Shown here in pieces: positions 17,186-47,085 of a stretch of DNA of 64,000 nucleotides (within the stretch, counting starts at the first letter, position 1; each line of letters begins with the position of its first letter). This stretch comes from Clostridia bacterium (GTDB lineage: Bacteria > Bacillota > Clostridia > Oscillospirales > RGIG8002): positions 1 through 64,000 of the forward strand of contig JAFZQJ010000020.1 of NCBI GenBank assembly GCA_017620395.1, written 5' to 3'. A model generated the notes under the pieces. The model searched no databases. It worked only from the letters and a program-made list of their open reading frames with translations, and was not told the origin of the DNA. The position numbers and the translations under genes are program-made.

Positions 17186-18232
17186 ATGACAAAGCTACCC
17201 GCCTTTGACGCGGACTACTGCCTCGAAACCTTCAAAAAGCTGCTCGCCGTCGACAGCACCACCGGACAGTATGAAGAAATACAGTCCCTTATCTGCTCTG
17301 CGCTCGACGGACTCGGATACGCCTATCATGTCACCCGCAAGGGAGGCGTGGTAGCCGACCTCGGCGGCGAAGGCGAAGCCCTCGCGGTCGCCGCGCACTT
17401 CGACGACATAGGCCTGATGGTGCGCAAGGTCAACCCCGACGGCACGCTGAACGTATGCCCCGTCGGCGGTCTCTATCCCTTCTACTGCATGACCGAGAAC
17501 GTCCGCGTCCACACGCGCGACGGCAAGGTCTTCACCGGCGCGGTATGCCGCACGCCGAACTCCGTCCACGTTACCGAGGAGGAGCTGCGCGACACGCCGC
17601 CGGACTTCCGCAAAAACGTCTGCGTCGTGCTCGACTGCGACGTGAAAAACGCCGAAGACGTCGCGGCGCTCGGCGTAGCCACCGGCGATATGATCGCGCT
17701 CGAGCCGCGCCTCGAGCTTTCCGGCGGATATATCAAGTCGCGCTTCATCGACGACAAGGCCGCCGTCGCTATCCTGCTGACCGCGCTGAAGGCGCTGAAG
17801 GAATGCGGCGCCGCGCTCCCGCGCAAGACGTATTTCTACTTCGCCGCCTACGAAGAGATCGGCCACGGCACCTCCTGGCTGCCGGACGGCGTCTGCGATA
17901 TGCTCGCCGTCGACATCGCGCCTACCGGTCCCGATCAGACCTCGGACGAGCACAAGGTAACGATCTTCGCGAAGGATTCGCGCTTCCCGTACCACTGGGG
18001 AATGACGAACGAACTGCGGCAGACCGCGATCGAAGCGGGCGTAGACTTCGTGATGGATATCTTCACCCCGCATTACGGCACCGACTGCGACGTCAGTCTC
18101 GTCGCCGGCCACGATATCCGCCACGCCGCCATCGGCTTCGGCACCGCCAACAGCCACGGCTACGAGCGTACCCACGTCGACGGGCTGAAGGCGACTTACG
18201 ACCTGCTCGCCGCGTACCTGCTGAAACGATGA
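17186..18232 (+). CDS. M42 family metallo-aminopeptidase
   Basis: The 348-residue cytosolic protein has the M42 motif set in order: AAHFDDIGLMV (first zinc ligand), FIDDKAAVAIL (bridging aspartate), YEEIGHGTSW (catalytic and zinc glutamates), VDIAPTGPDQ (zinc aspartate) and SHGYERTH (last zinc histidine). M42 enzymes trim N-terminal residues from peptides, usually as large tetrahedral oligomers. The Shine-Dalgarno is AAGGGAAG. The stop overlaps the start of the YjbR-like gene. Confidence 0.92.
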   Translation: MTKLPAFDADYCLETFKKLLAVDSTTGQYEEIQSLICSALDGLGYAYHVTRKGGVVADLGGEGEALAVAAHFDDIGLMVRKVNPDGTLNVCPVGGLYPFYCMTENVRVHTRDGKVFTGAVCRTPNSVHVTEEELRDTPPDFRKNVCVVLDCDVKNAEDVAALGVATGDMIALEPRLELSGGYIKSRFIDDKAAVAILLTALKALKECGAALPRKTYFYFAAYEEIGHGTSWLPDGVCDMLAVDIAPTGPDQTSDEHKVTIFAKDSRFPYHWGMTNELRQTAIEAGVDFVMDIFTPHYGTDCDVSLVAGHDIRHAAIGFGTANSHGYERTHVDGLKATYDLLAAYLLKR

Positions 18233-18618
18233 CAAGAGCCGAACTGACGGAATACATATCGGAGCAGTACGGCGCGTCGCCCGACGCGCCGTGGATGGAT
18301 TATCCCGATAATCACGTCTTCCGCCACGGCGGGAGCAAAAAGTGGTTCGCGCTGATAATGACGATCCCGCGTGCGAAGCTGAAGCTCGCGGGCGGGGGCG
18401 ATATCGACGTCGTCAACCTGAAATGCGATCCGCTGCTCGTCGGCTCTGTGACGAAGCAGACCGGCGTTTTTCCCGCGTATCATATGAACAAGACGCACTG
18501 GATAACCGTCGCGCTCGACGGCTCCGCCGACGCGGAAACGGTGAAAATGCTCCTCGGCGCGAGCTTCGCGCTCACCGCGCCGAAGATAAAGACGAAGTGC
18601 GAAAAGCCTTCCCCTTGA
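18229..18618 (+). CDS. MmcQ/YjbR family protein with altered C-terminus
   Basis: This 129-residue protein matches the MmcQ/YjbR (CyaY-like fold, DNA-binding) family: WMDYPDNHVFRHGGSKKWFALIMTI, then VNLKCDPLLVGSV, PAYHMNKTHWITVALDG. Its last residues (TKCEKPSP) are encoded by the left edge of an inserted palindromic repeat. A second copy of the bases at 18554-18592 occurs at 19066-19104. Read in frame, that copy continues into KKQPGRDV and a stop, which is probably the original C-terminus. The gene has therefore been modified by the DUF559-carrying insertion. Confidence 0.85.
   Translation: MTRAELTEYISEQYGASPDAPWMDYPDNHVFRHGGSKKWFALIMTIPRAKLKLAGGGDIDVVNLKCDPLLVGSVTKQTGVFPAYHMNKTHWITVALDGSADAETVKMLLGASFALTAPKIKTKCEKPSP
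18554..18592 (+). repeat. 39-bp direct repeat, left copy
   Basis: This 39-base stretch inside the end of the YjbR gene is repeated exactly at 19066-19104. The two copies bracket the DUF559 gene and its inverted repeats. Confidence 0.9.
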
Positions 18619-18662
18619 GGGGAAGGTGGATTGCCGCCGCAGGCGGCAAGACGGATGAGGTG
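18604..18662 (+). repeat. Left palindromic inverted repeat of the DUF559-bearing insert
   Basis: It starts AAGCCTTCCCCTTGAGGGG, has a central perfect 8-bp hairpin (TTGCCGCC-GCA-GGCGGCAA) and ends GGATGAGGTG. Its outer and inner segments recur, inverted, at 19011-19057, while the central hairpin differs in sequence. Repeats of this type are, from memory, common in Ruminococcaceae genomes. Confidence 0.85.
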
Positions 18663-18666
18663 TAAA

Positions 18667-19059
18667 ATGAACGAAACACGAAATCCGGATCTGAAACCAA
18701 ATGCGCAAAGTTTGAGAAAGAATATGACAAAGGAAGAGCGCCATCTTTGGTATGACTTCCTTAAAACCCTGTCCGTTACCGTAAACAGACAAAAGGTAAT
18801 AGGCAGGTATATTGTGGATTTCTATTGTGCGGATGCAAAACTGGTGATAGAGCTCGACGGTTCGCAGCATTATGCGGAAGCCGGCATAGCAGGCGATAAG
18901 GCGAGAGACAAGTTTTTGAGTAGTCTGGGATTGACTGTTTTAAGATACACTAATCTCGATGTGAAAAAGAATTTCAGAGGGGTATGTGAGGATATATTGA
19001 ATCACATTGACACCTCATCCGCCCCTTCGGGGCACCTTCCCCTCAAGGGGAAGGCTTGA
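18667..19059 (+). CDS. DUF559 (Vsr-like PD-(D/E)xK) endonuclease-domain protein
   Basis: The 130-residue protein is typical of DUF559: RKNMTKEERHLWYDFLK, NRQKVIGRYIVDFYCADAKLVIELDGSQHY (in two pieces) and GLTVLRYTNLDVKKNF. The D...E-x-D-G set fits a PD-(D/E)xK nuclease centre related to Vsr and restriction enzymes. The ATG used here is the one just after the left repeat; its ribosome binding site would be GAGGTG, part of that repeat. The final ~15 residues (SAPSGHLPLKGKA) and the stop codon are encoded by the right inverted repeat. Composition is more AT-rich than the flanking genes. The gene, two inverted repeats and flanking 39-bp duplications look like one mobile unit. Confidence 0.88.
   Translation: MNETRNPDLKPNAQSLRKNMTKEERHLWYDFLKTLSVTVNRQKVIGRYIVDFYCADAKLVIELDGSQHYAEAGIAGDKARDKFLSSLGLTVLRYTNLDVKKNFRGVCEDILNHIDTSSAPSGHLPLKGKA
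19011..19057 (-). repeat. Right palindromic inverted repeat of the DUF559-bearing insert
   Basis: Read on the minus strand it starts AAGCCTTCCCCTTGAGGGG and ends GGATGAGGTG, as the left repeat does, with a shorter central hairpin (GCCCC-gaa-GGGGC on this strand). It encodes the end of the DUF559 protein. Confidence 0.85.
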
Positions 19060-19065
19060 AACGGA

Positions 19066-19104
19066 TCGGCGCGAGCTTCGCGCTCACCGCGCCGAAGATA
19101 AAGA
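19066..19104 (+). repeat. 39-bp direct repeat, right copy
   Basis: This is an exact second copy of 18554-18592. In frame it encodes the end of the YjbR protein and runs on to a TGA at 19124-19127 territory (GTATGAG), overlapping the ATG of the next gene. Before the insertion the YjbR and zinc-ribbon genes would therefore have overlapped by ATGA-type coupling. Confidence 0.85.
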
Positions 19105-19123
19105 AACAACCGGGGAGGGACGT

Positions 19124-19639
19124 ATGAGAAAAACCATTGCTTTTATACTGACCGCGGCGCTGCTGCTTCCGGCGCTTGTCATAGCGCCGTTTTTCGCCGT
19201 GCATACTCACGCCGCCACGGTCTACGCCGTTTGCGTTATCTGCGACGGCAGCGGCAAATGCGGGCTCTGCGACCCCAAGAATACGCCGGAGGGCACGGGA
19301 GACGGCTGGCTTCGCTGTGATTTCTGCGACGCGGACGGTATGAGAAAATGCGGCACGAACCACGCCGGCGACGGCACCCCCATCGGCTGCGACGGCAGCG
19401 GCTACCTGCCTGACAGCAGCGTCTGCTGGAACTGCAACGGCACGGGCAAATACCTCTGCGACGCGTGCTGGGGCGAGAAGAAGTTCAAGTGCAAGTGCAA
19501 CGAGATGGGTCAGCCCGGCAAATGCACCGTCTGCTACGGCACCGGCTGGTACACAGTCGATTCGCAGGGGCAGAAGATCGAGATCGGGCACGGCGTCTAC
19601 CCGCCGGACGGCGCAAAGCTTGACGCCGGCGCGTGGTGA
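19124..19639 (+). CDS. Exported cysteine-rich zinc-ribbon protein, 5' part of a TGA-interrupted gene
   Basis: A signal peptide (residues 1-31, ending HTHAA) is followed by a run of CxxCxGxG-like motifs: CVICDGSGKCGLC, CDFCDADG, CWNCNGTGKYLCDAC and CTVCYGTGW. This resembles the DnaJ-type zinc-finger repeat, but on an exported protein. The frame stops at TGA 19637-19639. The same frame then stays open to 20590 with normal codon use (RHEYYTYNASRFGTG and on), so I read 19124-20590 as one gene (488 residues plus the interrupted codon) with a nonsense change, probably TGG to TGA. The Shine-Dalgarno GGGGAGG fits the ATG. Confidence 0.8.
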   Translation: MRKTIAFILTAALLLPALVIAPFFAVHTHAATVYAVCVICDGSGKCGLCDPKNTPEGTGDGWLRCDFCDADGMRKCGTNHAGDGTPIGCDGSGYLPDSSVCWNCNGTGKYLCDACWGEKKFKCKCNEMGQPGKCTVCYGTGWYTVDSQGQKIEIGHGVYPPDGAKLDAGAW

Positions 19640-46948: not shown

Positions 46949-47049
46949 TAAAGAAAACGGTTATACATAAACAAAGGTGTGTATTCGGAGCAGACGGTAA
47001 ATCGCCGATTCCGAATACACACTTTTTCTTTTACACTGCCGTTCCTTCA

Positions 47050-47085
47050 GGATCCTTCGACTCGCTGCGCTCGCTCAGGATGACA
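47050..47085 (-). repeat. Palindromic intergenic repeat, copy C
   Basis: Inverted relative to A and B: GGATCCTTCGACTCGC ... GCTCAGGATGACA on the plus strand. Confidence 0.8.

Follow-up and report, generated by a model that had tools for sequence, protein, structure and literature searches.

The described systems closest to the element reported here include two kinds of short dispersed repeats. REP/RAYT systems (REPtrons) consist of a single gene between short palindromic repeats, often in inverted orientation, with many gene-less repeats elsewhere; they are intergenic and form several cognate gene-repeat families (PMC3733652). The PIT/TM motifs were reported by Holder et al. 2015 to be dispersed in many bacteria; oligonucleotides of the TM_ECO motif form a stable triplex in vitro as judged by circular dichroism and nuclear magnetic resonance, and no mobility activity was found around the motifs in that survey (PMC4666352). 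Here we analyze a stretch of 64,000 nucleotides from a Clostridia bacterium (assembly GCA_017620395.1, contig JAFZQJ010000020.1; hereafter the window), in which a DUF559 gene, coding for a predicted Vsr-like PD-(D/E)XK nuclease, lies between two inverted repeats at the end of a yjbR-family gene. We consider it likely that DUF559 and these repeats, which are predicted to be intrastrand-triplex motifs, constitute a REP/RAYT-like mobile system in which the nuclease replaces the HUH transposase.

Like REP/RAYT, the system combines a repeat-flanked gene with solo copies of the repeat at other places, and it comes in several cognate, intergenic gene-repeat families. In contrast, DUF559 is a PD-(D/E)XK nuclease and not a Y1 HUH tyrosine transposase, and the repeat, AAGCCTTCCCC...GGATGAGGTGT, lacks the GTAG/CGTC tag at its foot, a mirror-symmetric purine tail taking the place of that tag. 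Since both enzyme and tag differ, the DUF559 system would work like REP/RAYT without being a member of it. With the TM/PIT motifs (TM_ECO; PMC4666352) the repeats share the succession pyrimidine arm, loop, purine arm, loop and mirror purine third strand, as well as a dispersed, intergenic distribution, often as inverted pairs. By this predicted mirror third strand the window-type repeats belong to the published TM/PIT class, although the clostridial versions have an additional variable hairpin as linker.

The unit and its surroundings in the window are laid out as follows:

18229..18618, + strand: yjbR-family gene, broken near its 3' end (Pfam YjbR, E 5e-21; open reading frame)
18554..18592, + strand: left-hand 39-bp duplicate (the same-genus genome G002 has just one at its empty site)
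18593..18603, no strand: 11-nt gap from the duplication to the left repeat (missing from the empty site)
18604..18663, + strand: left repeat R, tail toward the gene (covariance-model match, E 1.3e-13)
18607..18626, + strand: hairpin 1 of the left repeat, CCTTCCCC-TTGA-GGGGAAGG, pyrimidine arm and purine arm (compensatory changes in alignment A1)
18631..18649, + strand: variable hairpin 2 of the left repeat, TTGCCGCC-GCA-GGCGGCAA, with a GNA loop (repeat alignment)
18653..18660, + strand: tail of the left repeat, GGATGAGG, mirror of the purine arm and candidate for a third strand (7 of 8 triplets permitted)
18667..19059, + strand: DUF559 gene, predicted Vsr-like PD-(D/E)XK nuclease (Pfam PF04480, E 8.8e-31)
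19010..19057, - strand: right repeat R', inverted, tail toward the gene (covariance-model match, E 1.5e-22)
19058..19065, no strand: 8-nt gap from the right repeat to the duplication (missing from the empty site)
19066..19104, + strand: right copy of the 39-bp duplication, running on into the native yjbR end (comparison with G002)
19105..19127, + strand: orphaned native yjbR C-terminal codons, ...KKQPGRDV and stop (matches the G002 empty site)

An earlier, sequence-only reading of this DNA had described inverted repeats that enclose DUF559 and differ in their central hairpin, with coordinates that we find right to within a few bases: the inverted arms agree over 25 nt at 100% and over 15 nt at 93%, and hairpin 2 of the right repeat is unlike that of the left. 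The exact duplication of 39 bases of the yjbR end that it described is also there (18554-18592 and 19066-19104, identity 100%), and the downstream copy indeed leads to the native YjbR C-terminus. The open reading frame and repeat coordinates bear out, too, that the repeats supply the ribosome binding site and the last codons of the nuclease, the left tail being its Shine-Dalgarno region and the right repeat coding its end; the broken yjbR now terminates in ...KIKTKCEKPSP and a stop inside the left repeat.

Comparison within the genus shows that the unit was inserted into yjbR. G002 has an uninterrupted yjbR followed by the same downstream gene, and because this empty site holds a single 39-mer, and not the two copies that would have spoken against the sequence-only reading, the unit is an insertion. 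In a closer relative of the same genus, G001, the unit occupies the identical position and the 39-mer is present twice. When the occupied and empty sites are compared, the 11 nt on the left and the 8 nt on the right have no empty-site counterpart; the right-hand gap includes GAAACGG, which is also present just upstream of the duplicated segment.

In the window the palindrome occurs at two sites only, both flanking DUF559 (shuffle expectation 0), and an intrastrand-triplex scan recovered the same two repeats alone. The organism's own 1.93-Mb genome has 28 palindrome matches per strand, nearly all of them gene-less, and codes for a second DUF559 protein, 54% identical, amid a different repeat family (GGCTCCCC-TGTGCA-AGGGGAGC...CTGAGGGGTTGTC) that is likewise multicopy there. 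A single search recovered 80 clostridial DUF559 loci, 78 of which have at least one repeat within 300 bp and 46 an upstream "+" copy together with an inverted one downstream; across all 80 loci no more than about ten repeats were found elsewhere. When the DUF559 genes of ten named genomes, and others sampled from the class, are added, a pyrimidine/purine hairpin lies close to the gene in 127 of 129 loci (on both sides in 86) and a triplex motif within 250 bp in 124 of 128, as against 0 with shuffled flanks, and the density of motifs is 60-fold higher near DUF559 than far from it (4.49/kb vs 0.075/kb). The association of repeat and gene is therefore a general one, and the pairs enclose DUF559 in most of the roughly 129 loci, as the sequence-only reading had expected. 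Across 118 genomes of the class, with the repeat identified by covariance model R1, 16 have both repeat and a strong standalone DUF559, 7 the repeat only and 2 the gene only (Fisher p = 1.4e-12, a value that ignores phylogeny, though the positives span many families). Two genomes, G091 and G094, have 48 and 35 repeat matches respectively and no DUF559 match; the gene might have been lost or missed by the assembly, or another agent might be at work.

Such another agent could in principle be an enzyme of the IS200/RAYT Y1 transposase type that moves the repeats, with DUF559 as a passenger between two of them. Hairpin repeats with strand-specific loops do resemble REP and the ends of IS200/IS605, and many genomes of the class have a Y1 transposase (75 of the 118); however, these enzymes show no association with the repeat across those genomes (p 0.15), the own genome has 36 repeat matches and no Y1 (PF01797) match, and it is DUF559 that recurs, with a type that tracks the repeat type. 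We rejected DUF559 as a RAYT passenger on the lack of a Y1 match in the own genome, and consider the involvement of any such second enzyme very improbable.

The tracking of types was evident from a phylogeny of 91 DUF559 proteins, where repeat type changes 5 times, against a minimum of 4 and 16.5 with shuffled labels (0/200 shuffles). Furthermore, upstream and downstream repeat types agree at every one of the 48 loci for which both could be typed. As judged from these comparisons, repeat type and DUF559 co-diverge, and the pairs are not randomly assembled.

Examination of the repeats revealed a conserved architecture: in each window copy the conserved hairpin 1 (CCTTCCCC-TTGA-GGGGAAGG) is followed by hairpin 2, which varies, and then by the conserved tail GGATGAGGTGT. 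Across 28 aligned 48-nt repeats, on which we computed covariation, the stems are 99.7% paired and nearly every varying pair is compensatory, with 61 double-change cells vs 21.5 after shuffling (0/500); hairpin 2 is free to vary in sequence while its pairing is kept. Its three-base loops are GNA in 72 of 93 cases on the tail strand, mostly closed by C-G. C-G-closed GNA loops are unusually stable in single-stranded DNA, and for 141 of 164 repeats the predicted DNA folding energies are in favor of the tail strand. The tail changes together with hairpin 1 between repeat families, the purine arm/tail pairs being AAGGGAGG/GGAGGGATT, AGGGGAGG/GGAGGGGTT, GGGAGAGG/GGAGAGGGG, AGGGGAAA/AAAGGGGT and GGGGAAGG/GGATGAGG, in which the tail is the arm in reverse reading order and not its complement. 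Scored by the rules of the purine-motif triplex (G.GC and A/T.AT), tail and arm match at 6.92 of 8 triplets over 26 arm types, vs 5.68 for permuted tails, with 0/2000 permutations as high; the window repeats themselves fit at 7 of 8. Direct, complementary and reverse-complementary relations between tail and arm were tested and gave no covariation signal. Mirror symmetry and covarying hairpins of the repeats are shown by these comparisons, and because the tail mirrors the purine arm we interpret them as predicted intrastrand-triplex motifs. An intrastrand R.RY triplex would require just such a mirror relation, which is hard to square with a protein reading double-stranded DNA. The inverted repeats of the sequence-only reading accordingly stand, but its plain palindromes give way to triplex motifs with a mirror-symmetric tail. 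A described RNA family was also considered and rejected, no Rfam match being found.

The window protein scores 106 bits against DUF559 (cut-off 20.6), and among solved structures its fold comes closest to the homing endonuclease I-Bth0305I (3r3p) and a Neisseria protein (3HRL), followed by E. coli Vsr (1vsr). In the AlphaFold model the ordered fold ends near residue 117, immediately ahead of the ~13 terminal residues that the right repeat encodes; the AF2 predicted local distance difference test (pLDDT) score is 34 across this last block. Residues D51, E62, D64 and H68 are invariant in 79/79 DUF559 proteins, a fold and residue set comparable to Vsr and I-Bth0305I (EDxHD). Family score, fold and conserved residues concur in predicting a Vsr-like PD-(D/E)XK nuclease. 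Unlike Vsr and I-Bth0305I, the gene lies outside any intron, intein or methyltransferase operon and is flanked by cognate repeats. A Caulobacter DUF559 protein, VsrA, is needed for an SOS response in cells without a methyltransferase (PMC12907096), which fits DNA cutting in vivo. Two other origins were rejected: no convincing PADLOC family indicated a defense system, and a viral collection of 2.9 million contigs held only 16 related loci. In Faecalibacterium prausnitzii A2-165 a DUF559 gene lies directly upstream of the gene for the anti-inflammatory protein mam (PMC8836110).

The 147 genes neighboring DUF559 units belong to 136 families, and since they are nearly all different the unit appears to move between contexts. 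This bears on the alternative that DUF559 serves the host as a Vsr-like nuclease of the repair or restriction type, with the repeats as regulatory or binding sites spread by other means. The action of Caulobacter VsrA in mismatch-repair-like damage (PMC12907096) would suit such a role, as would the single gene ycjD between sapF and fabI in E. coli and a left repeat that provides the Shine-Dalgarno region and could block translation if folded. The 136 neighbor families, in addition to a window unit that is an insertion with duplication, missing in G002, and a gene that in most cases lies between two tail-in inverted repeats and does not merely follow one, make this alternative unlikely.

Long duplications at other loci, which the sequence-only reading had anticipated, were found in part. 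The duplicated gene end is ~62 bp at L067 (2374-2955), where relatives have one copy, and ~44 bp at L059 (2283-2967); in most of the other units no clear one is seen, and with the 39 bp of the window the length is not fixed. A fixed target duplication was in fact rejected, an exact-match search around the gene-less repeats of the own genome having given few long direct repeats (23-25 nt), some of which lie within other repeats. Unlike a classical insertion sequence, then, the unit has DUF559 as its sole gene, no known transposase and no short fixed-length duplications. The copies flanking the L059 and L067 units differ mainly at synonymous codon positions, so that they look like two alleles and not like a newly made duplicate. 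Either recombination between lineages later rearranged an old duplication, or homing between alleles played a part. The latter recalls a free-standing homing endonuclease, by which DUF559 would cut unit-less alleles and break repair would copy the unit in, the repeats mattering little. These allele-like copies and the closeness of the fold to I-Bth0305I are in keeping with it; yet insertion is not confined to cognate alleles but occurs at many unrelated sites, the repeats are dispersed without the gene, and their structure is strongly conserved, on which grounds we give homing by itself very little credence. For the repeat sites of G000 compared with G001-G003, intergenic regions are too reshuffled for insertion junctions to be read. 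At the position of L027 in G000, a close relative holds a different triplex-repeat family (L239, G001:C32).

The simplest reading, we infer, is that DUF559 recognizes and moves the folded repeat. The mobile element would be the DUF559 gene between two inverted intrastrand-triplex repeats, each ordered 5' pyrimidine arm, loop, purine arm, linker or second hairpin, and mirror-image purine tail. When single-stranded, the tail-bearing strand would fold hairpin 1, and the tail would form a reverse-Hoogsteen third strand alongside the purine arm. This fold would be recognized by the cognate DUF559, which would nick there and at the target; long-stagger insertion or repair synthesis could then leave tens of bp duplicated, and gene-less single repeats might be spread by the enzyme in trans, in the manner assumed for RAYTs and REPs. 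The REP/RAYT-like spread by a Vsr-like nuclease that the sequence-only reading proposed is supported: we have shown association, co-divergence and insertion, whereas triplex recognition, nicking and movement by DUF559 are what we infer.

Several points weigh against this account. No movement has been observed so far, and in E. coli in vivo footprinting showed no stable triplex (PMC4666352). The 26-nt linker of the window repeats is beyond the 1-6 nt loop limits of the published triplex search. Seven of the 23 repeat-bearing genomes have no DUF559 match, and physical linkage or joint inheritance could yield part of the co-divergence. A clear duplication of unique sequence is seen in three units only (window, L059 and L067), and the synonymous-site divergence of the L059 and L067 copies points to recombination between alleles. 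Because of these allele-like copies and the many units without a clear duplication, the insertion mechanism is the weakest part of the account.

Outside the Clostridia, triplex motifs lie beside most DUF559 genes checked in Azospirillum, Sinorhizobium, Sphingomonas, Deinococcus and cyanobacteria, several of the cyanobacterial and rhizobial matches being weak; in Novosphingobium the pattern was seen by eye, and a motif scan also found triplex motifs in Neisseria. The second linker is short in the motifs of E. coli, Deinococcus and Sphingomonas. The E. coli DUF559 gene is ycjD (MG1655 1,351,407-1,351,760), which lies 168 bp from TM no. 9 (1,351,204-1,351,239, same strand), a proximity with a chance of ~0.4% for one given gene (23 motifs in 4.64 Mb). 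TM no. 9 (L307) is also the sole one of the 23 catalogued TMs between 13' and 66'. The recurrence of this gene-repeat pairing from gut Clostridia to E. coli suggests that DUF559 is the long-missing spreader of triplex repeats. Whether it amounts to a bacteria-wide mobile class, in which a lone Vsr-like PD-(D/E)XK nuclease spreads repeats via a DNA triplex that they form themselves, we regard as evenly balanced; if so, it would explain the PIT/TM repeats of E. coli, Neisseria, cyanobacteria, Alphaproteobacteria, Deinococcus and Clostridia together. In the open-licence literature we found no paper linking DUF559 to repeats and no demonstration of insertion by DUF559. Triplex repeats have been known as dispersed and variable, with no mobilizer so far, and a co-diverging nuclease makes their origin testable, E. 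coli K-12, with ycjD and 23 repeats, being a direct test case. Were the proposal true, short-repeat mobility, so far known from RAYT/REP alone, would be extended by another class of enzyme and by a DNA triplex, and DUF559, a family still labeled "unknown", would gain a function.

Finally, another dispersed repeat family, of the type TGTCATCCTGAGCGAGCGAAGCGAGTCGAAGGATC, is present in the window (47005-47085, - strand); it has dozens of matches throughout the four genus genomes G000-G003 and often adjoins triplex repeats.
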